Below are positions 28,912-57,179 of a DNA stretch of 64,000 nt, piece after piece. Both the position numbers and the translations under genes were made by a program. Below the pieces are notes generated by a model. It made no database searches and had not been told where the DNA came from. It saw only the letters and a list, made by a program, of their open reading frames with translations. The DNA comes from Planobispora longispora (GTDB taxonomy: Bacteria; Actinomycetota; Actinomycetes; Streptosporangiales; Streptosporangiaceae), in NCBI RefSeq assembly GCF_016863135.1, contig NZ_BOOH01000023.1, forward strand, positions 124,001-188,000, in the 5' to 3' direction. Every line of letters starts with the position of its first letter. Within the stretch, counting starts at the first letter, position 1.

Positions 28912-29760
28912 TTAGCGCAGCGGGGCGACGGGGCCGTCGGGGTTGTTCATCCGGCCGTCCACCGTCGTGCGCACGTACTGGGCGACCTCCTCGTCGGACA
29001 GGCGGCGGAACCCGTCGGCGGTGATCACCGCGACCACCGGCCAGATCCGGCGGGTCACGTCGGGGCCGCCGGTGGCCGAGTCGTCGTCGGCCGCGTCGTA
29101 GAGGGCCTGGATGAGCGTCAGGACGGTGTCCTCGGGCGAGGCTCCCTCGCGGTAGAGCTTCTTCAGCGCGCCGCGCGCGAAGATCGAACCGGAGCCGATC
29201 GCGTGGTGCTGGTACTGCTCGTAGGGGCCGCCGCCGACGTCGTAGCCGAAGATCCGGCCGCCGTCGACCTCCGGGTCGTAGGCCGCGAACAGCGGCACCA
29301 CCACCAGCCCCTGCATCGCCATCGCGAGGTTGCCGCGGATCATCGTGGCGAGCCGGTTGGCCTTGCCCGCCACGGAGAGGGTGCGGCCCTCCATCTTCTC
29401 GTAGTGCTCCAGCTCGACCCGGTAGAGCCGGGCCATCTCGATGCCGGTGCTCGCCGCCCCGGCGATGCCCATGCACGAGTAGTCGTCGGTGCGGAAGACC
29501 TTCTCGATGTCCCGCTGGGAGATGATGTTGCCGGAGGTCGCACGGCGGTCGCCGGCCATCACCACTCCTCCGGCGCAGGTGGCCGCGACGATCGTGGTGG
29601 CGTGTGGAATCCGGTCGCCGACCGGGGTCGCCAGGGTGTCGTTACGGCCGGGCAGCAACTCCGGCGCGTAGGACCCGACGAACTCGGTGAACGAGGAGTT
29701 TCCGGTGTTCGTGAAGAGATGGTTCACCATGCCGGCGGGCAGGTCCCTGTGCGATGCCAC
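28912..29760 (-). CDS. prcB: Proteasome beta subunit PrcB (catalytic)
   Basis: The protein has 282 residues including a propeptide of about 54 residues. The expected cleavage is in [13 protein letters not shown], leaving Thr55 as the N-terminal nucleophile, and the following [15 protein letters not shown] stretch matches the active-site region of actinobacterial PrcB. The conserved [16 protein letters not shown] segment and the [10 protein letters not shown] helix are also present. PrcB supplies the peptidase sites of the 20S core. GTG at 29760 is preceded by GGAGGGAG. It is the first gene of the prcB-prcA pair. Pup and dop, which usually lie directly upstream, are displaced by about 10 and 23 kb. 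The propeptide and nucleophile look functional. Confidence 0.97.
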
Positions 29761-29944
29761 GCGACTCCCTCCAAAGGTGCTTCCTTTACGGTCCGACCCT
29801 ACTCACGTTGCCGTGTTGCATGCACTTCCCTCGATCAGCTCAGCGCGAACCACTCCCGGCCGGCCCCCTGAATCTTTACGCGCGAGTATGCCCGTGTAAT
29901 TGTCGAGTTGTCGTGACATTCCGCCGCCTCCCGAGGAGGTCGCC

Positions 29945-31327
29945 GTGAGACTCTCCCCCCGACCCGCGCTGACCGCGGCCCTCGCGGCGACGCTGCTCGC
30001 CCTGGCCTCCTGCGGATCCGACACCCCGGCGGAGGACGGTTCCATCACGTTGACCATCACCGCCAACGCGATCCCCGGAGGCAAGAACTCGGCCAGCGCC
30101 GACTGGATCAGGCAGTGGGTGATCCCCCGGTTCGAAGCCGCGCAGAAGGCCGCCGGGCGCGACGTGCGGGTGCTGTTCCAGCCCAACGGCGTCGACGACG
30201 AGCAGTACAAGACGAAGATCGCGCTGGATCTGAAGTCGAAGACCGGCGCCGACGTGATCGACCTCGACGGGATCTGGGTCGGCGAGTTCGCGCAGGCCGG
30301 ATACGTCAAGCCGCTCTCCGAGGTGGGCGGGCCCGGCGTGGACGCCTGGGAGGGCTGGTCGCAGATCCCGCAGGCCGTCCAGGGCCTGGGCATCTTCGAC
30401 GGCAAGAAGTACGGCCTGCCGCAGGGCACCGACGGCCGGGTCCTGTTCTACAACAAGGAGCTGTTCGCCAAGGCCAGCCTGCCCGAGCCCTGGCAGCCGA
30501 CGAGCTGGCAGGACATCATCGACGCGGGCACGGCGCTGAAGAAGCTGCCCGGCGTCACCCCGATCCAGATCAACGCCGGCACCGCGATGGGCGAGGCGAC
30601 CACGATGCAGGGCGCCCTGCCGCTGCTGGCCGGGACCGGCACCGAGATCTACGCGGGCGGCAAGTGGACCGGCGCCTCCCAGGGGGTCAAGGACGTGCTC
30701 GGGTTCTACCGGCAGATCTACGGCGGCGGCCTGGGCGACCCCAAGCTGCAGCAGGAGGCCAAGGGCCGCGACAAGTCCTTCGCCGAGTTCGCCGACGGGA
30801 AGATCGGCATCCTCGCCGAGGGCGACTACTTCTGGCGGGCCGTCGTCGAGCCCCAGGCCGGCGTGGCGCCGATGGCCGACCGGGACCGGGTCGTCGGCTA
30901 CGCCAAGATCCCGGCCAAGGAGCCCGGAGCCGGGGTCCGCGGCCAGGACTTCGTCAGCATGTCCGGCGGGGCCGTACGGGTGCTGAACCCCTTCTCCAAG
31001 AACCCCCGGCAGGCGTGGGAACTGCTGGCGTTCATGCACTCGGCCGAGGCGATCAAGGCCGAGCTCGCCGGCGCGGCCCGCGTCACCTCGCGCACCGACG
31101 TCAACGACGAGGTCCTCGCCAACGACCCGATGCTGACGTTCATCGCCAAGGAGATCCTGCCGATCACCGCCTACCGTCCGGGCCTGGCCGTCTATCCGCA
31201 GGTCTCCACCGCCCTGCAGGAGGCCACCGCCGCCGTCGTCTCCGGCACCGGCCCCGAGGAGGCCGCCGACGCCTACCGGACCAAGGTGGAGGGAATCGTC
31301 GGTGGCGCCGGCAACGTCTCCAACTGA
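29945..31327 (+). CDS. ABC transporter sugar-binding lipoprotein
   Basis: The protein has 460 residues and is an extracellular solute-binding protein of the type serving MalFG/UgpAE importers. A lipoprotein signal ends in LLALASC (Cys23). The mature domain starts with ITLTITANAIPGGK and contains DVIDLDGIWVGEFAQAGYVKPLS, YGLPQGTDGRVLFYNKELF and the usual hinge and Trp-rich binding features. GTG at 29945 is chosen because GAGGAGG lies five bases upstream. It heads the operon to the mannosidase gene at 39671, so a mannose-containing oligosaccharide is the inferred ligand. It is separated from the permease genes by 242 bp with repeats and hairpins, which may let it be made in excess. It is divergent from prcB. 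Confidence 0.92.
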   Translation: MRLSPRPALTAALAATLLALASCGSDTPAEDGSITLTITANAIPGGKNSASADWIRQWVIPRFEAAQKAAGRDVRVLFQPNGVDDEQYKTKIALDLKSKTGADVIDLDGIWVGEFAQAGYVKPLSEVGGPGVDAWEGWSQIPQAVQGLGIFDGKKYGLPQGTDGRVLFYNKELFAKASLPEPWQPTSWQDIIDAGTALKKLPGVTPIQINAGTAMGEATTMQGALPLLAGTGTEIYAGGKWTGASQGVKDVLGFYRQIYGGGLGDPKLQQEAKGRDKSFAEFADGKIGILAEGDYFWRAVVEPQAGVAPMADRDRVVGYAKIPAKEPGAGVRGQDFVSMSGGAVRVLNPFSKNPRQAWELLAFMHSAEAIKAELAGAARVTSRTDVNDEVLANDPMLTFIAKEILPITAYRPGLAVYPQVSTALQEATAAVVSGTGPEEAADAYRTKVEGIVGGAGNVSN

Positions 31328-31340
31328 CCCGGCGAGGGAA

Positions 31341-31430
31341 CCGCGAGGGGGCGCCGGTGCACCGGGCTGAGGAGCGAAGGAGCGAGGAACGAGCGGATGG
31401 GTGATGAGGGCCGCGAGGGGGCGCCGGTGC
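31341..31430. repeat. 20-bp direct repeat between binding-protein and permease genes
   Basis: CCGCGAGGGGGCGCCGGTGC occurs at 31341-31360 and 31411-31430, with further GGAGCG-rich short repeats between the copies. The gap holds no gene with a ribosome site. Confidence 0.8.
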
Positions 31431-31502
31431 GCTGGACTGGGGAGCGCGCGCTGCGAAGCGAGCGCGTGACGAGGGAAGGCACCGGTTACCGGCCCCCGAG
31501 CC

Positions 31503-31568
31503 GCCGTGCGCAGCACGGCCATCAACACAGCCGGTCATCAGCCCCCGGGCCGCGACGCGCAGCGTCGC
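31503..31568. promoter_or_regulatory. Twin short hairpins just before the permease gene
   Basis: GCCGTGC-GCA-GCACGGC (31503-31519) and GCGACGC-GCA-GCGTCGC (31552-31568) are two perfect 7-bp stems with the same GCA loop, 49 bp apart, set in similar flanking sequence. The second ends two bases before the permease ATG, leaving no room for a normal ribosome site. They could set mRNA stability or translation of the permease genes relative to the binding protein. Confidence 0.6.
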
Positions 31569-31569
31569 C

Positions 31570-32520
31570 ATGAGCACTGACGCGGCGGGGCTGGGCAGGA
31601 GCAGAGCGGTCGGGTTCGTGCTGCCGGCGCTGGTGCTCATCGGGGTCTTCCTGGTCTTCCCCGCGCTGTGGACGATCTACCTGGGGCTCACCGACTACCG
31701 CCTGACCGGGCTGGCCGCCGCCGACCCCCAGGTGGTGGGGGCCGACAACTACACCGCCGCGCTCGGCGACGACCGCTTCCGCACCTCGCTCTGGCTGAGC
31801 GTGCAGTACGTGCTCGGCTCGGCCGTGATCGGGCAGGCCGTGCTGGGGTTCGCGATCGCGTGGACGCTGCGCGACCGGCGCGGGCCGGTGCGGCGGATCG
31901 TCGAAGGACTCGTGCTGCTCTCGTGGATCCTGCCGAGCTCGGTCGTGGCGTTCCTGTGGATCGCGCTGCTGGACCGCGACGGCGGCACCCTCAACGCCCT
32001 GCTGAACACCCCCGGGGCCGCCTGGCTGCTCGACCACCCGATGTTGTCGATCATCGTGTTCAACACCTGGCGCGGCACCGCGTTCTCGATGATGCTCTAC
32101 GCCGCCGCGCTCGAGAACGTCCCCCCGTCGCACCTGGAGACCGCCCGCCTGGCCGGGGCCTCGACCTTCCAGCAGCTGCGCGACGTGGTCCTGCCCCGGA
32201 TCAAGGGCCACATCCTGACCAACATGCTGCTGATCAGCCTGTGGACCTTCAACGACTTCACCCCGTTCCTGATCACCGCGGGCGGTCCCGAGGGGCGCTC
32301 GGAGATCCTGCCGTTCTACGTCTACACCACCGCCCTGCGCGGCGGGCAGCTCGGCTTCGGCGCCGCCGTCTCCTTCCTGATCCTGCTGATCAACCTCGTC
32401 TTCGCCCTCGCCTACCTGCGCCTGCTCCGCACCCGTGACCGCGCCCATGATCGCGGGGACGACGGCGGCCACGACGACGAGCCCGGCGCCGATCCCGCGA
32501 TCCGGGGGACCGCCGCGTGA
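31570..32520 (+). CDS. ABC sugar transporter permease (MalF/UgpA type)
   Basis: The protein has 316 residues with six membrane segments. The ATPase-docking EAA loop reads LETARLAGASTFQQLRDVVLPRIKG, with the conserved Gly and Pro. The N-terminus GFVLPALVLIGVFLVFPALWTIYLGL is typical of CUT1 permeases. The C-terminal tail after residue 288 is a charged stretch rich in Asp, His and Gly. It forms the membrane channel with the next gene product, with which it overlaps by four bases (GTGA), so translation is coupled. No ribosome site is visible immediately before its ATG because a hairpin occupies that position. Substrate is inferred from the mannosidase gene in the same operon. Confidence 0.93.
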   Translation: MSTDAAGLGRSRAVGFVLPALVLIGVFLVFPALWTIYLGLTDYRLTGLAAADPQVVGADNYTAALGDDRFRTSLWLSVQYVLGSAVIGQAVLGFAIAWTLRDRRGPVRRIVEGLVLLSWILPSSVVAFLWIALLDRDGGTLNALLNTPGAAWLLDHPMLSIIVFNTWRGTAFSMMLYAAALENVPPSHLETARLAGASTFQQLRDVVLPRIKGHILTNMLLISLWTFNDFTPFLITAGGPEGRSEILPFYVYTTALRGGQLGFGAAVSFLILLINLVFALAYLRLLRTRDRAHDRGDDGGHDDEPGADPAIRGTAA

Positions 32521-33341
32521 ACGCCGTCCGCCACGCCCTCGGCCGCATCGCCTCCGCCGTCTTCCTCTCCGTCGTCGGCGCGTTCTTCGCGCTGCCGATG
32601 CTCTGGCTGGCCTCCGCCCCCTTCGACGCCACCCCCTCCATCACCGTCTCCGTCCCCGAGTTCACCCTCGCCAACTTCCGCGCCATCCTCGACAACCCCT
32701 ACGCGCTCGGCTCCATCGGCAACTCCGTCATCCAGGCCGGCGGCGCGGCGGCCGTCGTCGTCGTCCTGGCCGCGCTGGCCGCCTACGCCCTGTCCCGGGT
32801 ACGGGTGCCGGGCCGCGACGTCCTGCTGTACGTGCTGCTCCTGCTCTCCTCCGTCGTCACCGGCACCGCCGCCATGGTGCCGATCTTCGAACTCGCCACC
32901 CGCCTCGACCTGATCGACACCCACCTCGGCGTCATCCTCGTCGTCTCCGGCGGCCTGCTCCCCGCGGCGATCTTCATCCTGAAGGACTTCATGGACGCCA
33001 CCCCGACCTCCTACGAGGAGTCCGCCCGGGTGTTCGGCGCCTCGCCGCTGCAGATCCTGCGGCACATCGTGGTCCCGGTGGTCCGGCCCGGCCTGGCCAC
33101 CATCGCGGTCTGGGCCGTGGCCAGCGTCTGGGGCGGCTTCCTGATGCAGTACATCCTGCTGCGCGACCCGGAGAAGTCCCCCAGCGCGGTGATCCTCTAC
33201 ACCCTCTACACCGAGGGCGGCCAGCCCAACCTCGACCTCATCTCCACCTTCTCGCTGCTCTACTCGCTGCCCGTGGTCCTGATGTACCTGTTCGTCAGCG
33301 GCCGGTACGGCTTCCGCTTCCACGGAGGGATCAAGCAGTGA
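32517..33341 (+). CDS. ABC sugar transporter permease (MalG/UgpE type)
   Basis: The protein has 274 residues with six membrane segments and the EAA loop EESARVFGASPLQILRHIVVPVVRPGL (cited as the family motif, the conserved Gly and Pro present). The early loop ASAPFDATPSITVSVPEFTLANF resembles other CUT1 MalG-type permeases. It pairs with the preceding permease. The GTG start overlaps the previous stop in GTGA and its own stop overlaps the start of the ATPase gene in the same way, so the three transporter parts are translationally coupled and made in fixed ratio. The cargo is inferred to be a mannose-containing sugar. Confidence 0.93.
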   Translation: MNAVRHALGRIASAVFLSVVGAFFALPMLWLASAPFDATPSITVSVPEFTLANFRAILDNPYALGSIGNSVIQAGGAAAVVVVLAALAAYALSRVRVPGRDVLLYVLLLLSSVVTGTAAMVPIFELATRLDLIDTHLGVILVVSGGLLPAAIFILKDFMDATPTSYEESARVFGASPLQILRHIVVPVVRPGLATIAVWAVASVWGGFLMQYILLRDPEKSPSAVILYTLYTEGGQPNLDLISTFSLLYSLPVVLMYLFVSGRYGFRFHGGIKQ

Positions 33342-34408
33342 CGATCTCCCTGCACGGCCTGACCAAGGTGTTCCCCGGCGGGGCCCGCGCTCTGGACTCC
33401 CTCGACCTGGACATCGGCGAGGGGGAGTTCTTCGCCCTGCTCGGCCCCTCCGGCTGCGGCAAGACCACGCTGCTGCGCAGCATCGCCGGGCTGGAGACCC
33501 CGTCCTCCGGGACCGTCTCCATCGGCGGCGCCGACGTCACCGCGCTGCCTCCCGGCCGCCGCGACGTCGCCATGGTCTTCCAGGACTACGCCCTCTTCCC
33601 GCACATGGACGTCACCGCCAACATCGCCTACCCGCTGCGCATCCAGAAGGTTCCGCGCTCCCGTCGCGAGGCCGCGGCCGCCGAGGTCGCCGGGCGGCTG
33701 AGCCTGTCGGAGCTGCTCCGCCGCCGCCCGGGACAGCTCTCCGGCGGGCAGCAGCAGCGCGTCGCCCTCGCCCGCGCCATCGCCTGCCGCCCCAAGGTCT
33801 TCCTCTTCGACGAGCCCCTGTCCAACCTCGACGCCCGCCTGCGACTGGAGGCCCGCACCTTCCTCAAGCGCCTGCAGGGCGAGCTCGGCGTCACCACCGT
33901 CTTCGTCACCCACGACCAGGGCGAGGCTCTGGCGCTGGCCCACCGCGTCGCGGTCATGGACGCCGGGCGGATCACCCAGGTCGGCGCCCCCGCCGAGATC
34001 TTCCACCGGCCCGCCACCACCTTCGTCGCCTCCTTCATCGGCTCCACCCCGATGAACCTCCTGCCCGGCAAGGTCGCCGGGGACGCCCTGCACGTCGCCG
34101 GGGCCGTCCTGCCCGCCCCGCCCGGCCTGCCCGACGGCGAGGAGATCGTGTACGGCGTCCGCCCCGAGTACGCCGACCTGTCCGCCGCCCCCCGCGACGA
34201 CGCCTTCCCCGGAACCGTCGCCGTCCTGGAGAACCTCGGCACCTCCACCCTGGTCACGCTGGAGGGCGGCGGGGACGACGGCGACCTGCTCGTCCAGGTG
34301 GTCGTCCCCGAGGGGGAGGAGCCCCCGGCCGGCACGGCCGCCTGGGCCGTGCCCCGGCCGGGCCGGGCCCTGATCTACCACGGCGACCGGCTGATCCACC
34401 CGGCATGA
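33338..34408 (+). CDS. ABC transporter ATPase (MalK/UgpC/PotA type)
   Basis: The protein has 356 residues. Nucleotide-binding motifs are complete: LLGPSGCGKTT (Walker A), the Q-loop FQDYALFPHM, the signature LSGGQQQRVALARAI and Walker B KVFLFDEPLSNLDA, followed by the switch His in FVTHDQGEAL. The C-terminal 120 residues form the TOBE regulatory domain found in MalK-type proteins. GTG at 33338 overlaps the permease stop; the frame is open far upstream but only this start fits. Dedicated ATPases inside CUT1 operons are less common in actinobacteria, where a shared MsiK often serves several importers, so this transporter appears self-sufficient. Confidence 0.94.
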   Translation: MTISLHGLTKVFPGGARALDSLDLDIGEGEFFALLGPSGCGKTTLLRSIAGLETPSSGTVSIGGADVTALPPGRRDVAMVFQDYALFPHMDVTANIAYPLRIQKVPRSRREAAAAEVAGRLSLSELLRRRPGQLSGGQQQRVALARAIACRPKVFLFDEPLSNLDARLRLEARTFLKRLQGELGVTTVFVTHDQGEALALAHRVAVMDAGRITQVGAPAEIFHRPATTFVASFIGSTPMNLLPGKVAGDALHVAGAVLPAPPGLPDGEEIVYGVRPEYADLSAAPRDDAFPGTVAVLENLGTSTLVTLEGGGDDGDLLVQVVVPEGEEPPAGTAAWAVPRPGRALIYHGDRLIHPA

Positions 34409-34484
34409 ACACCGCGGTCCGCGGACGGGGACGCCGGTGCGGGAGCGGGGACCTCGGACAGGAGCAGGGGATGGGGGCACCGGA

Positions 34485-35714
34485 ATGAGAGCGCTGCGCC
34501 GTACCGGCCACTGGACCGTCGCCGACCGCGCCGCCGGCCCGGTCCGCGGCGTCCCGTTCGAGCTGCCCGCCGACGCCCGCGCCTTCACCGTCCGCCTCGC
34601 CTACGACCGCTCGGCGGGCGTGCTCGACCTGGGCTGCCTCGGCCCGCGGGGATTCCGCGGCTGGTCCGGCGGGGCCCGCTCCGAGTACACGCTCACCCCG
34701 GGCTGGGCCACCCCCGGCTACCTGCCCGGCGAGCCCGAGCCCGGCGTGTGGCACGTCCTGCTCGGCCTGTACCGGATCCCGCCCGAGGGCCTGCCGTACC
34801 GGCTGCGGATCATCCCGCACCTGTCCCCGCCCGCCGTCCCCCCGCCGCTCCGGCGCGGCCTGCGTCCCCCTCCCCCGCCCCGCGAGCCCGCCGCCACCCG
34901 GCGCGGCCTGCCCTCCCTCGGGGGCCTGCGCTGGCTCGCCGGCGACCTGCACGCCCACACCGTGCACTCCGACGGCTCCCTCACCGTCGCCGAGCTGGCC
35001 TGCCTGGCCGCCGACCGGGGCCTGGACTTCCTCGCCGTCACCGACCACAACACCGTCAGCCACCACGCCGAGCTGCCCGCCGCGGCCGCCTACGCCGCCA
35101 TCTCCCTCCTGCCCGGCCAGGAGATCACCACCGATCTCGGCCACGCCAACGCCTTCGGCGACCTCGGCTGGATCGACTTCCGCGAGCCGCCCGGCGTGTG
35201 GGCGGCCGCCGTACGGGAGAGGGGTGGAGTGATGTCGATCAACCACCCCGTCGCCGCCGACTGCGCCTGGCGCCATCCCACGCTCGGCACGGACGTGCGG
35301 TCGCCGGTCGTCGAGACCTGGCACTGGAGCTGGCTGGACCGCTCCTGGGGCGCCCCGCTGGCCTGGACCCAGGCGTGGACCGCCGCCCCCATCATGATCG
35401 GCGGCAGCGACTACCACCGGCCCGAGGAGGGACACCCCCCGGGCGAGCCGACCACCTGGATCCTCGGCGGCGACACCCCCGGCGGGATCCTCGACGGGAT
35501 CCGCGCCGGGGCCACCTCCGTCTCCGCCGCGCCCGGCGGGCCGCTCCTGCTGCGCCACGGCGACGACTTCCTCGTCCTGGACGCCGACGGCCTCCTGCTG
35601 TGGGGCCCCGACACCCGCCGGGTGATCGTCGGCGACCGGGTCGTCCTGCCCGCCCGGCCGGGCCCCCACCGGCTGGAGACCTTCCGCAACGAGGTGATGG
35701 CCCTGTGCAGCTGA
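34485..35714 (+). CDS. CehA/McbA-type PHP-domain metallohydrolase
   Basis: The protein has 409 residues. An N-terminal beta-rich domain (residues 1-115, with WHVLLGLYRIP) and a Pro-rich linker (about 120-140) precede a PHP domain with metal ligands in GDLHAHTVHSDGS, VTDHNT, GQEITT, INHPVAADC and GGSDYHRPEE. PHP proteins of the CehA/McbA group are metal-dependent phosphoesterases, and some hydrolyse carbamates. ATG at 34485 is chosen by the start of the conserved domain. In this sugar operon it may remove a phosphate or phosphodiester from the imported glycan before the mannosidase acts; this is inference. It is followed by an oxidoreductase gene at 20 bp. Confidence 0.85.
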   Translation: MRALRRTGHWTVADRAAGPVRGVPFELPADARAFTVRLAYDRSAGVLDLGCLGPRGFRGWSGGARSEYTLTPGWATPGYLPGEPEPGVWHVLLGLYRIPPEGLPYRLRIIPHLSPPAVPPPLRRGLRPPPPPREPAATRRGLPSLGGLRWLAGDLHAHTVHSDGSLTVAELACLAADRGLDFLAVTDHNTVSHHAELPAAAAYAAISLLPGQEITTDLGHANAFGDLGWIDFREPPGVWAAAVRERGGVMSINHPVAADCAWRHPTLGTDVRSPVVETWHWSWLDRSWGAPLAWTQAWTAAPIMIGGSDYHRPEEGHPPGEPTTWILGGDTPGGILDGIRAGATSVSAAPGGPLLLRHGDDFLVLDADGLLLWGPDTRRVIVGDRVVLPARPGPHRLETFRNEVMALCS

Positions 35715-35734
35715 CCCCCGGCGCCGAGGTCCCG

Positions 35735-36817
35735 GTGAACGTCGCGATCGCCGGGCTCGGCGTGGCCGCGCAGGTGATGTACCTGCCGCTGCTGGCCAGG
35801 CGGCCGGAGCTGTTCCGCGTCACGGCCGTCTGCGACCTCGACCCCGAACAGGTCGGCCGGGTGGCCCGGCGCACCGGCGCCCGTCCCTTCTCCGATCCGC
35901 ACGCCATGCTCGACGCCGGCGGGTTCGACGCCCTCATCGTGCTCACCGCCGGAACCCACGGCGGGATCGTCGCCGCCGCGCTCGCCGCCGGACACGCCGT
36001 CCTGTGCGAGAAACCCCTCGCCTACAGCCGCGCCGAGGTGAGCGCGCTGCAGAACCGGGACCGCCTCATGGTCGGCTACATGAAGCAGTACGACCCCGCC
36101 GTCCGGCGCGCCGCCGCCCTCCTCGGCGGGCACGCCGTCCGCCACCTCGACGTCACCGTCCTGCACCCCGCCGGCGAGGCCCAGCTCGCCTTCGCCCGCG
36201 TCCGCCCCTCCCGGCCCGGCCCGCAGGCCCTGGAGCCCTGGCTGCGCGCCGACGAGCGGGCCCTGGACGCCGCCCTCGGCCCCGCCTCCCCCGCACCCTG
36301 GCGGTCCCTCTACGCGAACGTCGTCCTCGGCAGCCTCTGCCACGACCTGGCCCTCATGCGGACCTTCAGCGGCCCGCCCGCCACCGTCGAGCACGCCGCC
36401 GTCTGGGACGGTCCCTCCGTCGAGGTCTCCGGCGCGCTGGAACACGGCCGGTACGGCCTGCGCTGGCACTACCTGCCCGGCCACCCCGCCTACCGCGAGA
36501 CCGTCGCCGTCCACCACGAGGAAGGCTCCCTGGAGCTCGTCTTCCCCTCCCCCTACCTGATGAACGCCCCCACCGTCCTGACCGCCGCCTCCCGGTCCGG
36601 AACCACCGAGGTGCGGGCCGCGCACCTCGACGTGACGGAGGCGTTCGAGCTCCAGCTGGAGGCCTTCCACGCGCTGGTCACGGAGGGCGCGCCCCCGCTC
36701 ACCGGACTCGACGGCGCCCTCGCCGATATCGTGACAGCGCAGCGGATCATCGCGGCGGCCGCCGGAGACGCCATCGGAGGCGAGGCCAATGAGGCACACC
36801 AGTCACACGACGCCTGA
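35735..36817 (+). CDS. Gfo/Idh/MocA family oxidoreductase
   Basis: The protein has 360 residues. An N-terminal Rossmann domain begins VNVAIAGLGVAAQVMYLPLL and is followed by the family motif HAVLCEKPLAYS, where the Glu-Lys-Pro turn carries the catalytic Lys, and MVGYMKQYDPAVRRA. The C-terminal domain is the usual open beta-sheet. These NAD(P)-dependent enzymes oxidise or reduce hydroxyl groups of sugars, inositols and glycosides, and some split glycosides through redox steps. GTG at 35735 has GAGGT just upstream. It overlaps the start of the mannosidase gene by 29 bases, so the two are coupled. The substrate in this operon is unknown. Confidence 0.88.
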   Translation: MNVAIAGLGVAAQVMYLPLLARRPELFRVTAVCDLDPEQVGRVARRTGARPFSDPHAMLDAGGFDALIVLTAGTHGGIVAAALAAGHAVLCEKPLAYSRAEVSALQNRDRLMVGYMKQYDPAVRRAAALLGGHAVRHLDVTVLHPAGEAQLAFARVRPSRPGPQALEPWLRADERALDAALGPASPAPWRSLYANVVLGSLCHDLALMRTFSGPPATVEHAAVWDGPSVEVSGALEHGRYGLRWHYLPGHPAYRETVAVHHEEGSLELVFPSPYLMNAPTVLTAASRSGTTEVRAAHLDVTEAFELQLEAFHALVTEGAPPLTGLDGALADIVTAQRIIAAAAGDAIGGEANEAHQSHDA

Positions 36818-40189: not shown

Positions 40190-40335
40190 ATGTGGCACCT
40201 CCGCCTGGGGGACGTCTGTACTTCATATCTTCCCCGAAGTGGCAGACATTTCGCGCGGATCACCTCGCGATCTTCAGCCGCCTCGGACCCTGCCGCCAGA
40301 CAACCTCCCCCACCGGCTCCGAGGCAAATCCCGCC

Positions 40336-47122: not shown

Positions 47123-47176
47123 CCGCCCATCCCTTCCACGCCACTCACCGCAACCACTCCGCACTCACACCCCGCT

Positions 47177-47260
47177 GCCGGTGACCACCCGCACTCAGCC
47201 CGCACCGGCTCACACTCACCCGACCACCCCACGCCCGTCTCCCCGCCGGTGACCACCCGC
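47177..47260. repeat. 16-bp direct repeat in the cobO-cobB gap
   Basis: GCCGGTGACCACCCGC occurs at 47177-47192 and 47245-47260, within a C/A-rich stretch of related short repeats. No gene is seen in the 236-bp gap. Confidence 0.7.
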
Positions 47261-47358
47261 GCCGCACCCGCCCAGTCAGGTGCGCACACTTCCCGGCGCC
47301 GGTACGGCGAGGCGGGGTGCGGGCGTCTCCGGCGCCGCCGTACGGCGCGCACGCCGGA

Positions 47359-47961: not shown

Positions 47962-48002
47962 GTCACGCCTTTCCTGTGCTCACAGCTGCTCGTGTCGTAC
48001 GG

Positions 48003-50426
48003 TCACGCGGCGGTCCGCTGCCGGATCATCCCGGCGAGGTCGGTGAGGTCGTCCAGGCGCACGGTCTCGGCGCCCATCCGGCGGGCCAGGGAGGCGGCGA
48101 GGCCGAGGCGGACGTAGCCGCTCTCGCAGTCCACGACCACGCTCGTCACCCCGGCCAGCAGCGCCGCCGCGCGGTGCGACTCCTCGACGGTGCCGGAGGT
48201 GGCCCGGCCGTCGGTGACCAGGACCAGCAGCGGCCGCCGGGACGGGTCGCGCAGCCGTTCCACCCGGAGCGCCTCCGCGGCGCGCAGGAGCCCGGCGGCC
48301 AGCGGGGTGCGCCCGCCGGTGGGCAGCTCGCGCAGCCGGGCGGCGCCCGCCTCGACGGAGGAGGTGGGCGGCAGCACGAGATCGGCGCGGGAGCCGCGGA
48401 AGGTGATGAGGCCGACCTTGTCGCGGCGCTGGTAGGCGTCGAGCAGGAGGCTGAGCACGGCAGCCTTGACGGCGCTCATGCGCTTGCGGGCGGCCATGGA
48501 CCCGCTGGCGTCGACGACGAGGAGCACCAGGTTGCCCTCGCGGCCCTCCCGGACGGCCTCGCGCAGGTCGTCGCGGCGCAACAGCAGCCCGGGGCCGCTC
48601 CTGCCGCGTTCCCGCTGGTACGGCGCCGCGGCGAGGACGGTGGCCGTCAGGTGGACCGAGGCCGGGCGCCCGCCGGGGACGCGGGCCCCGGTGGTGCGGC
48701 CGAGCGGGGTCCTGGCCCGGGATCGGCGGCCGGGGGCTCCGGCGCCGACCCCGGGGACGGTGAACACCCGGGCCGGGCGGAGCCGGCCGGGCGCCTCGAC
48801 CCGCTCACCGTCCCCGCCCTCGGCCCCCGGCCCCGGATCCGCCGCGCCCCCGGCGGGCGGGTGACCGTACGGGCCGCCGGACCGATCCTCCGGGGCCCGG
48901 GGGTCATCAGGCCCACCGTGCCCGCCCGATGCGTGGCCGTGCGGACCGCCGGACCGGCCCTCCGGGTCCCGGGGATCATCAGCTCCGTCACCGCCCTCGG
49001 CCCCCGGCCCCGGATCCGCCGCGTCCCCGGCGGGCGGGTGACCGTACTCGCCGGATGCTGGGTCGCGTGGATCGCCGCAGGAAGGGGGGGCGTCCCCGGG
49101 GCCGCCGCTCTCGGGGCCGCCGCTCTCGGGGCCGCCGCCGTCGGGGTCGTCGTCCTCGGGATCGTCGTCCTCGGGATCGTCGGGGATCCGGGCGAGGAGG
49201 GCGTCGAGTCTCGCCTCGTCCAGGCCGGGGGCGTCGAAGGGGTCGCGGCGGCGGCGGTGCGGGAGGGCGAGCCTGGCGGCCTCGCGGACGTCCTCGGCGG
49301 TGACCCTGCTCCGCCCCCGCCAGGCGGCGTGCGCGATGGCGGCGTTGGCGGTGACCAGGTCGGCGCGGAGACCGTCCACGTCGAACCCCGCGCAGACCGT
49401 GGCGATCCGCCGCAGCGCGGAGTCCGGCAGGACCACCTCCGCGACGCGGGCCCGCGCCTCGGCGATCCGGGCGGCCAGCTCCGCCTCCCGGCCGGCCCAG
49501 GCCGCGGCGAAGGCGGCCGGATCCGTCTCGAAGGTCAGCCTGCGCCGGACCACCTCGGCCCGCTCGCCCGGCTCCCGCGAGGCCCTGACCTCGACGGTGA
49601 GGCCGAACCGGTCGAGGAGCTGCGGGCGCAGCTCGCCCTCCTCGGGGTTCATGGTGCCCACCAGGAGGAACCGGGCGGCGTGCCGTACCGAGACGCCTTC
49701 CCGCTCGACGTAGCAGGTGCCGAGCGCGGCCGCGTCCAGGAGCAGGTCGACGAGGTGGTCGTGGAGGAGGTTGACCTCGTCGACGTACAGGACCCCGCGG
49801 TGGGCCGCCGCGAGGAGGCCGGGTTCGAAGGCTTTCACGCCCTCGGTCAGGGCGCGCTCGATGTCCAGGGAGCCCGCCAGGCGGTCCTCGGAGGCGCCGA
49901 CCGGGAGCTCGACCAGGCGGGCGGGGCGCGAGGACCCCGCCCCGACGCCCCCGCCGATCGCGGCTCCGCCGTCCGCCTCGGTGGGGTGCGGCCCGTCGGG
50001 GCAGCCGGGGTCGGGCGCGGCCGGGTCGCAGGAGAAACGGCAGCCGGGGACGACCGCGACGGGCGGCAGGAGCGCGGCGAGCGCGCGCACGACGGTGGAC
50101 TTGGCGGTGCCCTTCTCACCGCGGACGAGCACGCCGCCGACGCGGGGCGAGACGGCGTTGAGGATCAGGGCGAGCTTGAGGTCCGCGAGCCCCACGACCG
50201 CGGTGAAGGGGTAGCGCGGCGCCTCCCGCGCCGCCGGAACCGCCGCCGGGGACGGCGTCAGGACCACCGGGGAGGTGCCGGGCGCCGCCGGGGATGTCCG
50301 CCGAGCCGCTTCCGAGGCCCCTTCCCGGATGTCTGCCGAGGTCCCTCCCCGGGGCCCTGCCGGGATCTCCGCTGGGGTCTCTGTCGAGGTGTCGGGCACC
50401 GTCGGTGTCTCCTTGTGGTTCGTCAT
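48003..50426 (-). CDS. ChlI/ChlD-type (AAA+ and VWA) metal chelatase subunit, probably cobaltochelatase
   Basis: The protein has 807 residues. After a Pro/Thr-rich N-terminal 60 residues an AAA+ domain begins ([19 protein letters not shown]; Walker [24 protein letters not shown] Walker B region), then an acidic Pro/Gly-rich linker of about 150 residues, then a von Willebrand A domain with the metal site [16 protein letters not shown]. This is a fusion of BchI/ChlI- and BchD/ChlD-like parts, used in actinobacteria with CobN to insert cobalt into the corrin ring. No CobN or magnesium chelatase H gene is in the window. Its ATG overlaps the stop of the phosphatase gene in ATGA. The linker contains a direct repeat of 56 bp (48815-48870 and 48992-49047). 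Confidence 0.88.
48815..49047 (-). repeat. 56-bp direct repeat coding part of the chelatase linker
   Basis: A 56-bp segment beginning CGCCCTCGGCCCCCGGCCCC occurs at 48815-48870 and 48992-49047, 177 bp (59 codons) apart and in frame, with a single visible difference. It encodes the duplicated linker motif around GHPPAG and [11 protein letters not shown]. Confidence 0.8.
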
Positions 50427-51037
50427 TCGGGGTAGCTCAACCGCCAGCGTCCGCCGCGCCCGGTGAGGGAGACCCGGGCCAGCGGCGCGACGTCGACACG
50501 CCAGAAGGAGCGGGCGGGGGCGCCGAGGGCGTGGACGACGGCGGCGCGGACGACCGCGGGGTGGGTGACCGCGACGGTCCGGCCCGGCCCCGCGGCGGAC
50601 AACCAGCCGTCCACCCTGGCCAGGAGGTCCAGGAGCGGCTCGCCGCCGTGGGGCGCGGCGGCGGGGTCGGAGAGCCAGGCGGCGAGCGCCTCGGGTTCGG
50701 CCGCCTCGACCTCGGCGAGCGTCATGCCGCGCCAGCGGCCGTAGTCGCAGTCGGCGAGCAGCGGATCGGGGTCTCCCGCCGTCTCCAGGCCGAGCGCCCC
50801 GGCGGTCTGGACGCAGCGCCGCTCGGCGGCCCAGGCCACCCGGACGCCGCCGGGTCCGGTCCGCCCCTCCCGGCTCCGTCCCGCCTCCGCCGTCCCCACG
50901 AGGGGGGCCAGGGCGGCGGCCCGGCGCAGGCCGCGCTCGTCGAGCGGCTCGTCTCCGGGGAAGGCGGCCCTGGCGGTCGCCCGGGTCGAGGCGTGGCAGA
51001 CCAGCAGCAGGCGGGTGGTCCCGCCGGACGTCGTCAC
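50423..51037 (-). CDS. Histidine phosphatase-superfamily protein with Cys in place of the first Arg
   Basis: The protein has 204 residues of the phosphoglycerate mutase-like fold. The usual Arg-His-Gly motif appears as [12 protein letters not shown]: the catalytic His15 is kept but Cys14 replaces Arg. The second conserved His is in [12 protein letters not shown], and [16 protein letters not shown] is a typical middle segment. In a cobalamin operon an alpha-ribazole phosphatase role would be natural, but the changed Arg makes this uncertain. GTG at 51037 overlaps the cbtA stop in GTGA, and its own stop overlaps the chelatase start, so it is translationally locked into the operon. An extension upstream in frame lacks support. 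Confidence 0.82.
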
Positions 51038-51831
51038 GCCGGGGCGGGCGCAGGCGGTGCCGTGGTCCGCTCGCGTACGGCGAGGGCGAACAGGGCGCCG
51101 ACGCCGAGCCAGAACACGGCCTGGGTGCCCAGGGAGGCGACCCGGAAGTCCCACAGCAGGTCGGCGGGGAACCCGGCGGGCACCTCGGCGATCTCCGGAA
51201 GGAAGGCCCAGGCGGCGGCCACGGGCAGCAGCGTCGCCGCGCCCGCCGCGAGCCAGCGCAGCGCGGGGTCCGATCCGGCCGCCACACGGTGGGCGGCGGC
51301 GCCCGCGGCGGCGGCGAGGATGCCGATGACCACGGCGACCAGGTAGAGCACGGTGCGCTGGTTGATCGTGCCGGGGTCGCCGACGGCGGGCGGGTTGGCG
51401 GGATATTTCAGGAACGGGACCAGGACGACGGCGGCGAACGCGGTGACCGCCAGGACGACCGCGAGCACGGGCGCCGAGCGGGGTCCGGCCCGGCCGCGCA
51501 CGGCCGCGTGCACGAGGGCGAACAGGCCGCCGAGCGCCACGCCGTACAGGGCCAGGGCGAGGAAGAGCCCGAATCGCTGCCCGCCCCTGCTGACGAGGGC
51601 CCCCTCACCGTGGGAGTGGTCCCCTTCGGAGGCTCCGCCGTGGGAGTGGTCCCCTGCGGGCGTACCCGCGTGGGAGTGCTCTCCGGCGCCGTCCGAGCCG
51701 GTCGCGGCCGCCTCCTCCAGCGCGATGGCCCGCTCGATCTGGGGCTCGCCCACGACGTAGGCGAAGCCGGCCGCGAGCAGCCCGGCGAGCAGTCCGGCGA
51801 GCATGCCCCGGACCAGGAGTCTGGTGATCAC
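51034..51831 (-). CDS. cbtA: Cobalt transporter subunit CbtA
   Basis: The protein has 265 residues with about five to six membrane segments and the family N-terminus [21 protein letters not shown] His-rich loop after the first segment (about residues 51-78) has three repeats of a HSH unit (GEHSHAG, GDHSHGG, GDHSHGE), a likely cobalt-gathering site. CbtA with CbtB is a B12-regulated cobalt uptake system predicted from genome context. The gene follows cbtB by seven bases and its stop overlaps the phosphatase start. It is probably in the cytoplasmic membrane. The function is known by inference in the family rather than by detailed biochemistry. Confidence 0.92.
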
Positions 51832-51838
51832 GTGTGGC

Positions 51839-52033
51839 TCAGTGGCAGGGGACGCCGAGCAGGTGGCGCCCGTCGTGCATGAGCTCGTGCAGGTAGTTCC
51901 CGGCCTGCGAGATCGCGCCCTGGTCGAAGGCCGCCAGGTAGGCGACGAGGAGCAGGACCGGGACGGCGAGCAGCCAGGGGGTGAGCGAGGCCCACGGAAC
52001 GGGTCGGGTCTGCGGAGCCGAGATCTGGCTCAC
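51839..52033 (-). CDS. cbtB: Cobalt transporter subunit CbtB
   Basis: The protein has 64 residues with one membrane segment (WLLAVPVLLLVAYLAAFDQG) and the conserved His-rich end HELMHDGRHLLGVPCH, which matches CbtB and could bind cobalt. GTG at 52033 is preceded by AAGGAGGTAGCC, a strong ribosome site. It is the first gene after the cobalamin riboswitch at 52072-52190, so cobalt uptake and late corrin steps are switched off when B12 is plentiful. The short length is normal for the family. Confidence 0.93.
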   Translation of the reverse strand: MSQISAPQTRPVPWASLTPWLLAVPVLLLVAYLAAFDQGAISQAGNYLHELMHDGRHLLGVPCH

Positions 52034-52071
52034 GGCTACCTCCTTCAGGGATTGCGCGTCCCTCTCGTAGG

Positions 52072-52190
52072 TGGTGGCGGCCGAGTGACCTGGCTCCCGG
52101 CCGCGAAGGGCCGGTTACAGTGGCGCGACCGCACCGGAATCTCACCGGATTTCCCTCGCGCCGCCACAAAACATCCGGAACCTATCCCGT
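52072..52190 (-). ncRNA. Cobalamin riboswitch
   Basis: Reading the minus strand, the hallmark elements occur in order: GGGAAATCCGGTGAGATTCC, then GGTCGCGCCACTGTAAC, and the B12-box-like GGGAGCCAGGTCACTCGGCC. The element ends about 40 bases before the cbtB start, so it probably controls translation or termination of the whole cbtB-cbtA-phosphatase-chelatase-cobO-cobB operon in response to adenosylcobalamin. Exact ends are approximate. Confidence 0.92.
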
Positions 52191-52404: not shown

Positions 52405-53919
52405 TCACTCGCCGGTGAGCGCGGTGACCAGCTCGCTGGCGGTGCGGCAGCGGTCGAACAGCTCGCCCACGTGGGCCTTGGTGCCGCGCAGCGGCTCCAG
52501 GGTCGGGACCCGCTGCAGCGACTCGCGGTCGGGGATGTCGAAGATCACCGAGTCCCAGGAGGCCGCGGCGACCGAGTCGCTGTACTGGCTCAGGCAGCGG
52601 CCGCGGAAGTAGGCGCGGGTGTCGCTCGGCGGGACCTCGACGGCGCGCTGCACCTCCTCCTCGGTCACCAGGCGCTGCATCCTGCCCCGGGCGACCAGCC
52701 GGTTGTACAGGCCGCGGTCGGGCCGGATGTCGGAGTACTGCAGGTCGACCAGTTGCAGGCGGGGGTGCGACCAGGGCAGCCCGTCGCGGCTGCGGTATCC
52801 CTCGAGCAGCTCCAGCTTGGCGACCCAGTCGAGCTCCCCGGACAGCTGCATGGGGTCGTCGGCCAGGCGGGTCAGGACCGACTCCCAGCGGTCCAGGATG
52901 TCCTTGGTCGGCTCGTCCACGCCGTTGCCGCTGCGGGTCTCGGCGTACTTCCTGGCCAGCTCCAGGTACTCCATCTGGAGCTGGACCGCGGTGAGCCTGC
53001 GGCCGTCGCGCATCGGGATCTCGTAGCGGAGCGTGGGGTCGTGGGAGACCGCGCGCAGCGCCTGAACCGGGTTCTCCACGGCGAGGTCGCGGGTGAAGAA
53101 GCCGTCCTCGATCATGGCGAGGATCAGGGCGGTGGAGCCCAGCTTCAGGTAGGTCGAGATCTCCGACATGTTGGCGTCGCCGATGATGACGTGCAGCCTG
53201 CGGTACTTCTCCGGGTCGGCGTGGGGTTCGTCCCGGGTGTTGATGATCGGCCGCTTGAGCGTGGTCTCCAGGCCGACCTCGACCTCGAAGAAGTCGGCCC
53301 GCTGGCTGATCTGGAAGCCCTCGCCGCGTGAGTCCTGGCCGATGCCGACCCGGCCGGCGCCGGTGACGACCTGCCGGGAGACGAAGAACGGCGTCAGGTG
53401 CCTGACGATGTCGGCGAACGGCGTGGCCCGCCGCATCAGGTAGTTCTCGTGGCAGCCGTAGGAGGCGCCCTTGTTGTCGGTGTTGTTCTTGTAGAGCTGG
53501 ATGGGGGCGTTGCCGGGCATCGCCGAGGCGCGGACCGCGGCGTCGTGCATGACCCGCTCTCCGGCCTTGTCCCAGATCACCGCGGCCCGGGGGTTGGTGC
53601 ACTCGGGCGTGGAGTATTCGGGATGGGCGTGGTCGACGTACAGCCGCGCGCCGTTGGTGAGGATCACGTTGGCCAGGCCGAGGTCCTCGTCGGTGAGCTG
53701 ACTCGCGTCCGCCACCTCCCGCGCGAGGTCGAAGCCTCGCGCGTCGCGCAGCGGGTTCTCCTCCTCGAAGTCCCACCGGGCGCGTCGCGCCCTGGCCGCC
53801 GAGGCGGCCAGGTAGGCGTTCACGACCTGGGAGGAGGTCACCATCGCGTTGGCCCCCGGCTGTCCGGGCACGGAGATGCCGTACTCGGTCTCTATGCCCA
53901 TCACCCGCCGTACCGTCAT
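52405..53919 (-). CDS. dop: Deamidase/depupylase of Pup, Dop
   Basis: The protein has 504 residues, homologous to PafA but with the Dop-specific N-terminus [20 protein letters not shown] and the extra segment [22 protein letters not shown] (the Dop loop region). The catalytic Asp is Asp96 in [16 protein letters not shown], and [20 protein letters not shown] and [14 protein letters not shown] are shared with PafA. Dop removes Pup from substrates and converts Pup-Gln to Pup-Glu. Since Pup here already ends in Glu, only depupylation should be needed. ATG at 53919 has AAGG upstream; an ATG at 53949 is the alternative. It is followed by a hairpin and separated from arc by an acyltransferase gene. 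All key residues are present. Confidence 0.95.
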
Positions 53920-54005
53920 GCGCACCTTCTGTTCGTCAGGGGCTGTCATGTCCGCTGTGTATATGCCCGAGCCTAGACCTTTCACCATGCCCTGTGGCCA
54001 GACAG

Positions 54006-55160
54006 TTATGGCACCGAAGCCTTTTCGCCCAGGCTGTGTGGCGCCGCGGAGACCCTTTCCCAGGAGGGTTCCGGCGCGGGGCCGCGCCGCCGCCGCCTGG
54101 CCTTGACGAACTCCTGGACCGGCCGTTCGGCCACCCGGTAGACGAGATAGGAGAAGGCCGTCACGGCCAGGACGGTGACGACGGCGGTCAGCCAGGGCGG
54201 CAGCGTGTCCCGGAGCGCGGGGATGATCAGCACGGCGCCCGCGGTGTGGAACAGGTAGACGGGGTAGGTGACGGCGCCCAGGACGACCAGGCCGCGCCAG
54301 CGCAGCCGGCCGAGCCAGCCGAGCGCCACCATCGCCATGAGGGCGTAGAAGGCGATCACGGTGGCCACGACGGCCCACTCGGGCACGGGCATGGCGGCGT
54401 AGCCGACCAGTTCGATCCGGCCGGCCACCCGGTCCAGGGCGGCGTTGACCGCGAGCCCGGCGCTGACCCCGGCCACGCACCACAGGATCAGCCGGGGGCC
54501 GTACCTGGTCATCAGGTAGAAGGCCATGCCGCCGACGAAGTAGGCCGCGTACTTGGGCATGATCAGCAGTTCGACCCAGTAGTCGTCGCTGCCCGTGAAG
54601 AACCCGGCCGCCAGCAGCCAGACGCCCATGAAGACCAGGCAGCGGCCGAGCGTCGCCCCGAAGATCACCAGGACGGAGATCAGCAGGTAGAAGCGGAGCT
54701 CGACCCAGAGCGACCAGTAGACGCCGTTGGCGTCGTAGACGCCGAACAGGCGCTGGAGCATGGTCAGGTTGACCGCGTAGCCGCCGGAGTCGAGCTTGGG
54801 GTCCAGGGCCGTGGCCGAGGTGAGGCCGTACAGGGCCGCGGTGACGCCGACGCTGACCCAGTAGGCCGGGTAGAGCCGGACCACGCGGGAGAGCGCGAAG
54901 CCGCCCAGGCCCCGTCCCCAGATGCTCATCAGGATGACGAAGCCACTGATCATGAAGAACAGTTCGACGCCGAGGATGCCGAGGCCGGAGATCGTGGAGA
55001 TCGCCGGGAACAGCTCGGCGGGCGTCTCATCCCATACGGAACGGAAGGCGACGAAGTAGTGGAAGGCGAGCACCGCCATGGCGGCGACGAAGCGCAGGAG
55101 GTCCAGTTCGGCGAGGCGGCCGCCGCCCTCCGCCGCTCCGCGCGACCTCGTGCCGGTCAA
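54006..55160 (-). CDS. Acyltransferase 3 family membrane protein
   Basis: The protein has 384 residues with about ten membrane segments. The family markers are [19 protein letters not shown] (catalytic His in the first helix), [24 protein letters not shown] and [12 protein letters not shown], characteristic of acyltransferase 3 (OafA/NodX) enzymes, which move acyl groups onto sugars, glycolipids or antibiotics across the membrane. The C-terminus is basic and Pro-rich. It is inserted between arc and dop on the same strand, where most actinobacteria have no such gene. ATG at 55160 gives the family N-terminus. No lipid or glycan synthesis gene is adjacent, so its acceptor is unknown. Confidence 0.9.
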
Positions 55161-55345
55161 CGGACGACCACGCCGAAATATTCACACACGCCCCTTGGAC
55201 GGCGAACCGATCACTTGGGTTCCAAGTGATGACATTTCACTTTTGTGACTGGTGGGAGAACGCCGGACCGCGCCGCCGGACCGCGCCGCCGCCCCGCTCA
55301 CCCGCCGGCCCACCGGTCCGCTCATCCGCCGGCCCCGGACACGCG

Positions 55346-55379
55346 CGTGGCGCGCTCCCCGGCCGGGGAGCGCGCCACG
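55346..55379 (-). terminator. 34-bp perfect palindrome downstream of arc
   Basis: CGTGGCGCGCTCCCCGG (55346-55362) is immediately followed by its exact reverse complement (55363-55379). It lies 37 bases after the arc stop on the minus strand and is probably its terminator. The same region holds CCGCCGGACCGCG-type short repeats. Confidence 0.75.
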
Positions 55380-55415
55380 TGGATGTGCCGCCGGACGCGC
55401 CAGGGATCGGACGCG

Positions 55416-57179
55416 TCAGAGGTACTGACCGGTGTTGGCCACCGTGTCGATGGAACGGCCGGCCTCGGCGCCCTGCTTGCCGGAGACCAGGGTGCGGATG
55501 TAGACGATCCGCTCGCCCTTCTTTCCGGAGATGCGGGCCCAGTCGTCGGGGTTGGTGGTGTTGGGCAGGTCCTCGTTCTCGGAGAACTCGTCCACGCAGG
55601 CGGTCAGCAGATGGTTGATCCGCAGACCCTTCTGCCCGGTCTCGAGGAACTGCTTGATCGCCATCTTCTTGCCGCGGTCAACGATGTTCTGGATCATCGC
55701 GCCGGAGTTGAAGTCCTTGAAGTACAGGACCTCCTTGTCGCCGTTGGCGTAGGTGACCTCCAGGAAGCGGTTCTCCTCGCTCTCGGTGTACATCCGCTCG
55801 ACGACCCGCTGGATCATGCCCGCGATGGCGCCCTCCCGGCTGCCGCCGTTCTCGGCGACGTCGTCGGGGTGGAGCGGGAGCTCGGGGATGAGGTACTTCG
55901 AGAAGATGTCCTTGGCCGCCTCGGCGTCCGGCCGCTCGATCTTGATCTTGACGTCCAGACGGCCGGGCCGCAGGATCGCCGGGTCGATCATGTCCTCGCG
56001 GTTGGAGGCGCCGATCACGATGACGTTCTCCAGGCCCTCGACTCCGTCGATCTCGGACAGGAGCTGGGGGACGATCGTGTTCTCGACGTCGGAGGAGACG
56101 CCCGAGCCGCGGGTCCGGAAGATCGAGTCCATCTCGTCGAAGAACACGATCACCGGGGTGCCCTCGGAGGCCTTCTCACGAGCCCGCTGGAAGACCAGGC
56201 GGATGTGCCGCTCGGTCTCACCGACGTACTTGTTGAGAAGCTCGGGACCCTTGATGTTGAGGAAGAAGCTCTTGCCGGACTGGCCGGTCTTCTCCGCGAC
56301 CTGCTTGGCCAGGGAGTTGGCGACCGCCTTGGCGATGAGCGTCTTGCCGCAGCCGGGCGGGCCGTACAGCAGCACGCCCTTGGGCGGACGGAGCTTGTGC
56401 TCGCGGAAGAGGTCGGCGTGCAGGTAGGGAAGCTCGATCGCGTCCCTGATCTGCTCGATCTGCCGGCTGAGGCCGCCGATCTCCTCGTAGGAGATGTCGG
56501 GCACCTCCTCCAGGACGAGCTCCTCCACCTCGGACTTGGGGATGCGCTCGTAGACGTAGCCCGAACGCGGCTCCAGCAGCAGCGAGTCGCCGGCCCGGAT
56601 CGGCTGGTCGAGCAGCGACTCGGCGAGCTTCACCACCCGCTCCTCGTCCGCGTGCGAGATCACCAGCGCCCGCTTGCCGTCCTCGAGGAGCTCCTTGAGC
56701 ATCACGATCTCGCCGAGATCCTCGAAGCCGAGGGCCTCGACGACGTTGAGCGCCTCGTTGAGCATCACTTCCTGGCCGCGCTTGAGATCGTCGACGTCCA
56801 CCGCCGGACTGACGTTCACGCGAAGCTTGCGACCGCCGGTGAAGATCTCCACCGTGCCGTCTTCTCTGGCCTCCAGGAAGACGCCGAACCCGGATGGCGG
56901 CTGCGCCAGCCGGTCGACTTCCTCCTTGAGGGCGACAATCTGATCCCTGGCTTCCTTGAGGGTCGCCACCAGGCGTTCGTTCTGCGCGGTGACGGCCGCG
57001 AGATTCGCCTGCACCTCATGGAGACGCTCTTCAAGGACCCTGGCCTGCCGGGGAGACTCCGTCAATTTCCGACGTAGCGCGGTGATCTCCTCCTGCAGGA
57101 AGGAGACCTGTGTTGTGAGGTCAGCGACCTCCCGTTCGCGCTGCGCGGCTCGAGCCTCAGCGTCGTCGCGAGCTGCCAC
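55416..57179 (-). CDS. arc: Proteasome-associated AAA+ ATPase Arc/Mpa
   Basis: The protein has 587 residues: an N-terminal coiled coil (residues 1-95, rich in Glu/Arg/Leu) that binds Pup, two OB domains (about 95-235), an AAA+ domain with YGPPGCGKT (Walker A), [12 protein letters not shown] (Walker B) and the arginine-finger region [11 protein letters not shown], and the C-terminus GQYL, the motif that docks into the proteasome alpha ring. It forms a hexamer that unfolds pupylated proteins into the 20S core. GTG at 57179 has GGAGGTGACGGC just upstream. It is followed by an acyltransferase gene and then dop. Nothing needed for activity is missing. Confidence 0.97.

Follow-up and report, generated by a model that had tools for sequence, protein, structure and literature searches.

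How does pup come to stand alone in a locus whose other members it is expected to touch? Published accounts of Pup-proteasome loci (PMC3511204, PMC2588565, PMC8223512) state that pup invariably adjoins a gene of the PafA family and usually lies directly upstream of prcB. The question is raised by a 64-kb stretch of the Planobispora longispora genome (NZ_BOOH01000023.1, positions 124,001-188,000), called here the window, to whose positions all feature coordinates refer. It carries the same six genes as the known locus, in the same order and on the same strand, but its pup adjoins neither dop nor prcB, and 17 unrelated genes lie between. We consider it likely that the Pup-proteasome locus itself is ordinary and that the spaces flanking pup have accumulated unrelated operons, and kept eroding them, across the history of one sub-clade.

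The six genes, arc-dop-pup-prcB-prcA-pafA, are colinear on the minus strand, and all six proteins score above the NCBIfam cut-offs: the proteasomal ATPase arc/mpa (55416-57179; TIGR03689, 845 against 505 bits), the depupylase/deamidase dop (52405-53949; TIGR03688, 780 against 492 bits), pup (39980-40189; PF05639 and TIGR03687, 74 against 41 bits), prcB (28912-29760; TIGR03690, 348 against 192 bits), prcA (28093-28890; TIGR03691, 350 against 139 bits) and the Pup ligase gene pafA (25874-27232; TIGR03686, 759 against 551 bits). Pup is 69 amino acids long and starts with ATG, a GTG at 40198 probably not being its start; it ends in GGE and Arc in TGQYL, in agreement with the C-terminal motifs GG[EQ] and GQYL given by PMC8223512 and PMC3511204. 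The interval between dop and pup measures 12.2 kb with 10 genes and that between pup and prcB 10.2 kb with 7 genes, so that dop, pup, prcB and prcA are not contiguous. An earlier note on this DNA had read the same order, strand and gaps of about 12 and 10 kb from the letters alone, and the NCBIfam-supported positions confirm them. Its division of the locus into three pieces proved too coarse, since an acyltransferase-like gene (54006-55160, minus strand; PF01757), a piece of older cargo, also splits arc from dop, and hyp173, an open reading frame of 173 amino acids without Pfam match (27358-27879, minus strand), splits prcA from pafA. The note had also named a second pup beside another dop or prcB in the genome as contrary evidence. 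A search of the whole source assembly (8.84 Mb, 120 contigs, 99.96% complete) returned one pup, two genes of the Pup_ligase family, which are dop and pafA, and one prcB (E 1e-30 or better), and no second pup, dop or prcB; compared with plasmids, the pup region gave no match. With pup set apart from dop and prcB, the locus is a variant of the Pup-proteasome locus and not a typical member, adjacency being a matter of arrangement, not of function.

Distribution of the split locus

The three genes pup, dop and prcB were located in 150 Streptosporangiales genomes from 39 genera, with distances reaching to the ends of profiles or matches, which overstates gaps by up to about 150 bp. Wherever two of the genes share one contig they keep the same order and strand. 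Among 140 single-contig cases, dop and pup lie more than 1 kb apart in 78 and more than 3 kb apart in 58; for pup and prcB the corresponding numbers are 65 and 33 of 143, and both gaps are wider than 1 kb in 28 of 134, spread over 11 genera. The four genomes sampled from the two other families of the order are all compact, with 233-263 bp between dop and pup and 84-596 bp between pup and prcB.

A second sample covered the class with 138 genomes, 126 of them outside the order and 106 of these with a pup match; its pup-prcB distances run up to where the beta-subunit model begins and are overstated by roughly the propeptide. Outside the order, dop and pup are more than 1 kb apart in 9 and more than 3 kb apart in 4 of 103 genomes, pup and prcB in 3 and none of 100, and colinearity holds without exception. 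One family (f13) has dop-pup distances of 1.4, 1.4 and 10.2 kb in its three genomes; a wide dop-pup gap is therefore not exclusive to Streptosporangiales. Within the two samples, wide gaps on both sides of pup were seen in Streptosporangiales only.

Chance colinearity is not an issue, as every contig with two of the genes is colinear inside and outside the order. The compact families and the relatives outside the order support the view of the earlier note that insertions on both sides of pup are the derived state; loci with contiguous dop, pup and prcB, whose absence among relatives would have spoken against it, are present. What the comparison does not support is that the split is an event of this genome itself, as many genera have this cargo at these positions and the history of the cargo mostly follows that of the core genes. 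Taken together, the sequence comparisons describe insertions that are real but old, shared among genera and eroding.

Cargo of the open junctions and its history

In the window, the space between dop and pup holds a cobalt/B12 operon of six minus-strand genes (45773-52033; Pfam and NCBIfam matches) and four plus-strand genes. The operon consists of cbtB (51839-52033), cbtA (51034-51831), a histidine phosphatase (50423-51037), a cobaltochelatase-like ChlID (48003-50267; 771 bits, slightly below the TIGR02442 cut-off of 779), cobO (47359-47961) and cobB (45773-47122), and has an adenosylcobalamin (AdoCbl) riboswitch upstream of cbtB (52036-52180, minus strand; RF01482, 54.7 bits, gathering score 50). 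On the plus strand follow a PAS-GGDEF-EAL protein (42950-45670), found among the compared loci only in the window's genus (g1) and in Planomonospora (g4), two Ser/Thr kinases transcribed away from pup (41948-42838 and 40925-41719; PF00069), and mem134 (40396-40800), a small hydrophobic protein without family match, divergent from pup. The kinase and cyclic di-GMP genes had been counted to the B12 operon; their opposite strand and a distribution of their own set them apart from it. Between pup and prcB lies a plus-strand, mannoside-type operon of seven genes recognised by Pfam (29945-39671), which code for a solute-binding protein (SBP; 29945-31327), two permeases (31618-32520 and 32517-33341), an ABC ATPase (33338-34408), a PHP protein (34485-35714), a GFO/IDH/MocA oxidoreductase (35705-36817) and a GH38 protein (36789-39671).

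Layouts were compared between the window and 92 genomes, picked non-randomly from the 149 others for genus coverage, on a tree of the six core proteins of the 93 loci. In a sub-clade of 54 tips and 16 genera, among them Streptosporangium, Planomonospora, Microbispora, Nonomuraea, Sphaerisporangium, Planotetraspora and Herbidospora, the kinase, the B12 operon and the mannoside operon recur in the same places and orientation, with varying completeness. Under Dollo parsimony the kinase cluster, present in 40 of 92 loci, requires one gain and 2 losses, the acyltransferase between arc and dop one gain and 6 losses; chlID was lost 5 times, GH38 8 times and the ABC ATPase 18 times. Genes were called with a home-made codon-score caller that misses small ones (tblastn turned up genes that had not been called, cbtB in four loci and elsewhere cobX or mem134), so that presence counts are lower bounds and losses upper bounds. 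Distances between cargo proteins correlate with those between core proteins (Spearman 0.76-0.93 in 13 of 15 cargo families), and in none of the 15 families did any of 500 permutations reach the observed value. This comparison used sub-clade loci only, except for the acyltransferase and hyp173; it took ABC ATPases from eight genera, those of the other genera being likely unrelated, and the pup-proximal copy where there are two kinases.

Erosion has left traces. Remnants of GH38 without a called gene were detected in both loci of genus g23 (E 2e-18 and 6e-13) and in G124 (7e-12), pieces of the oxidoreductase, PHP, ABC and permease genes in G134 (E 4e-52 to 4e-13), a piece of cbtA in G121 (9e-21) and one of the SBP gene in G110 (1e-6); a further GH38 piece in G105 is marginal (E 8e-4). 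ABC-ATPase matches in Nonomuraea loci that lack this gene were dropped as candidate remnants, the query model being over-long and the matches lying outside its ABC part.

Insertion also goes on. G040, a genome of the window's genus, has about 6.4 kb with six antisense genes between dop and cbtB, which its congener G032 and the window lack; accretion therefore continues. Compared with G032, this is one compact insertion, without an integrase among its six genes by eye and with its ends located above base level. Also by eye, it encodes a radical-SAM protein, a sulfotransferase/oxygenase, a tetrapyrrole-methylase-like protein and a small proline-rich peptide, and is possibly a peptide biosynthesis cluster. 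In a separate lineage, that of g3 (which we take to be Nocardiopsis-like) and its neighbours, the dop-pup and often the arc-dop space are filled with other genes and pup-prcB stays below 0.5 kb; g25, the deepest branch of this lineage, has one gene in each gap flanking pup. Loci of g3 and g11 carry up to three alpha-lytic-type serine protease genes (cluster c15) antisense beside pup, and the one protein scanned has Trypsin and Pro_Al_protease domains. In g14 (Herbidospora) and g23 the dop-pup gap reaches 17-21 kb and contains, by eye, much of the cobalamin pathway, including a CobN-like protein.

The junctions of the locus differ in what they take up. Cargo genes occur between dop and pup in 72 of 92 loci, between arc and dop in 55 of 80, between pup and prcB in 49 of 91 and between prcA and pafA in 34 of 85 (hyp173 in 33 of these 85), and are absent from trmI-arc (0/67), prcB-prcA (0/91) and pafA-FKBP (0/72). 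The ruvB neighbourhood, with 13 conserved junctions in 40 genomes, all of the sub-clade, served as a control. Gaps above 3 kb affect one of its 13 junctions (5 of 34 loci), compared with 21 of 39 loci at dop-pup and 27 of 40 at pup-prcB, so that the excess over comparable junctions which marks an insertion hot spot is found at 3 kb against this one control locus. At the 1-kb limit the same sub-clade genomes give 27 of 39 and 35 of 40.

Genomic islands and integration hot spots resemble the locus in their recurrent, lineage-varying cargo between fixed core genes. They differ from it in that the window holds no tRNA, that its 17 cargo genes gave no match to a recombinase family and that the cargo is mostly old; the combination of tRNA and integrase that defines an island is thus missing at the window. 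A precedent is given in PMC3511204, with loci whose pafA is parted from the proteasome genes by reading frames that have nothing to do with them; insertion between units of the locus is noted there already, only at prcA-pafA and not flanking pup.

Promoter-like elements upstream of pup and prcB

The earlier note supposed that the insertions gave pup its own promoter. A conserved promoter-like block precedes pup (40222-40274, minus strand), with ATGTCT at 40244-40249, a spacer of 16 and TATGAA at 40222-40227; its core is TTCGGGGAAGATATG (40224-40238, minus strand), of which the genome has one exact copy, at pup, and one further copy with one mismatch. Of the 54 sub-clade loci, 51 carry the block about 50 nt upstream of the ATG in the form GGTTCGGGGAAGATA, either exactly or with one mismatch; shuffled sequence comes no nearer to it than five mismatches. 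A reading of the block as a RecA-NDp/PafBC promoter was dropped as its spacing is unsuited.

Common to the order is a smaller, -10-like element, GATA or TANNNT at -55 to -33 from the pup ATG. It is present in all 20 loci without a called gene between dop and pup (shuffled mean 2.1) and in 67 of the 72 loci with dop-pup cargo (shuffled mean 11.0), the joint pattern and the range having been chosen post hoc, after inspection of the sequences. Control windows further upstream gave 1/20 and 0/72, 8/20 and 12/72, and 6/20 and 16/72 for loci without and with cargo. Eighteen of the 20 loci lie outside the sub-clade; the two inside, G033 and G060, probably lost their dop-pup cargo. In a narrower first test (-55 to -38), 5 of the 20 cargo-free loci had TANNNT (shuffled mean 1.2); GATA was present in 8 of these 20 (shuffled mean 0.5) and in 57 of the 72 with cargo (shuffled mean 2.9), GATA being the element of the cargo loci. 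Insertion thus probably did not create the promoter of pup. An uncoupling of tag supply from ligase and core particle, which the earlier note derived from the insertions, would be a possible consequence.

At prcB, the conserved promoter-like block AGTGCA..TGAGTAGGGTCGG (the TGAGTAGGGT block; 29793-29826, minus strand) tells a similar story. With one mismatch allowed, AGTANGGTC is present in each of the 52 sub-clade loci, of which 41 carry cargo and 11 do not, as well as in 29 of 39 loci outside. The same position of the blocks in compact and filled loci argues that the promoters would predate the insertions. The antisense neighbours on both flanks of pup in the window make co-transcription with dop or prcB unlikely, and the simplest view is that its pup would form a single-gene transcript from an inherited promoter.

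A mechanism may be proposed from these elements. If pup and prcB each already possessed a promoter just upstream, DNA inserted between the transcription units would be close to neutral, and the separate promoters may explain why the gaps tolerate insertion; tightly spaced pairs such as prcB-prcA, trmI-arc and pafA-FKBP would have remained closed. An AdoCbl riboswitch belongs to the B12 operon itself and the mannoside operon is antisense, so that no functional coupling between cargo and pupylation would be needed.

Weighing of alternatives and meaning of the finding

Several observations count against an ordinary locus with old, eroding insertions. The SBP (0.55) and mem134 (0.59) trees track the core less closely than the other cargo families. 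The date of the mannoside operon at the base of the sub-clade hangs on Sphaerisporangium (g24), where it is present in one of 4 sampled loci and in L209 (L179 is the same genome), and 11 of 52 sub-clade loci have no called gene between pup and prcB. Dollo counts presuppose that nothing is regained, and the tree is built from genes of the locus, not from whole genomes. The ruvB control is a single locus and not a genome-wide null, and at 1 kb the contrast with it is weaker, as three control junctions vary (22/34, 12/29 and 7/36). As to the promoters, the long pup block is specific to the sub-clade (4 of 39 loci outside come within 3 mismatches), the TATGAA of the window differs from TANNNT and was not called by a consensus scan, the prcB block counts have no shuffle control, and TANNNT at -55 to -38 occurs in only 3 of 72 cargo loci, below the shuffled mean of 6.7. 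Because of this last shortfall, our confidence in the proposed history was lowered a little.

A bolder proposal, which we hold to be unlikely, sees the flanks of pup as long-lived acceptor sites, with tag, recycling enzyme and core particle under separate control through the own promoters of pup and prcB and the pup-adjacent kinase, acquired in the ancestor of the 16 genera, kept as a regulator of tag supply. Also unlikely is a functional association in which that kinase, perhaps with mem134, regulates Pup or the proteasome and the cargo is retained for joint control. The kinase cluster is indeed the most stable cargo of the dop-pup space, with 2 losses against 5-18 for B12 and mannoside genes, and mem134, where present, is divergent from pup; in the window its promoter-like site, TTGACT-17-AATAAT (40336-40364, plus strand), overlaps a perfect inverted repeat, GATAGT-3-ACTATC (40343-40357), which suggests a repressor site. 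However, the kinase is absent from all 12 sampled Nonomuraea (g7) loci with the position of pup unchanged, has diverged rapidly (its cargo/core distance ratio, with a median of 8.95, exceeds that of all the other 14 families) and represents two paralogues merged in one cluster; nothing evident links B12 or mannoside functions to Pup or the proteasome, and a position kept beside a shared intergenic region requires no joint function.

If identical operons had arrived at these sites several times independently by horizontal transfer, in place of one old gain and many losses, this could account for the patchiness within genera (of 8 g16 loci with known gap, 5 have pup-prcB cargo) and for the low SBP correlation. 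We judge such repeated arrival improbable: most cargo trees track the core, the gene remnants mark losses, and GH38 copies in the locus are 63-86% identical to that of the window compared with 47-62% for copies elsewhere in the genomes, ranges that almost touch. An artefact, be it an assembly error or another intact pup locus in the genome, is a thought invited by the draft state of the assembly that can practically be dismissed, as the two-sided split recurs in the single-contig genomes G069 and G082 and in named records and the genome of the window has one pup only.

Variation in the core proteins was followed on the same 93 loci. Pup terminates in Gln at 59 and in Glu at 34 of them, and the tree requires no fewer than 24 changes of this residue (27.9 on average and 19 at the lowest after shuffling), always behind an invariant QKGG; the window has GGE (39983-39985), its two congeners GGQ. 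That Pup ends in Gln or Glu depending on the species is already known from PMC3511204. Switching at this rate suggests a nearly neutral deamidation step here. Across the 90 loci for which both gaps are known, a search for a link between split locus and Pup-Glu showed none: Pup ends in GGE in 16 of 39 loci where both gaps hold cargo, in 10 of 31 where only dop-pup does, in 2 of 9 where only pup-prcB does and in 4 of 11 where neither does.

Other core genes vary as well. A second prcB-like gene is present in all 19 sampled genomes of g18 (Actinomadura/Spirillospora), g12 and g28, and G121 (g33) has three prcB matches. In G114, pafA is represented by N- and C-terminal pieces only, two each, on separate contigs (C46, C45, C2 and C15), perhaps a near-identical repeat that broke the assembly and perhaps a duplicated pafA. 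PafA is at least 95% identical to the best of four queries in those Streptosporangiaceae and Actinomadura-group loci that hold it (L171-L250); PrcB, at about 75-92% in the same loci, is clearly less conserved.

No description of a two-sided isolation of pup was found in searches of the open-licence PMC literature, and the split runs counter to the published statements on adjacency. The finding concerns genome architecture and is not a new biochemical system. Compact, filled and eroding loci form a natural series that lends itself to the question which spaces of an operon-like cluster tolerate insertion, and the comparison identifies strains in which the expression of pup would be measurable as a separate unit.

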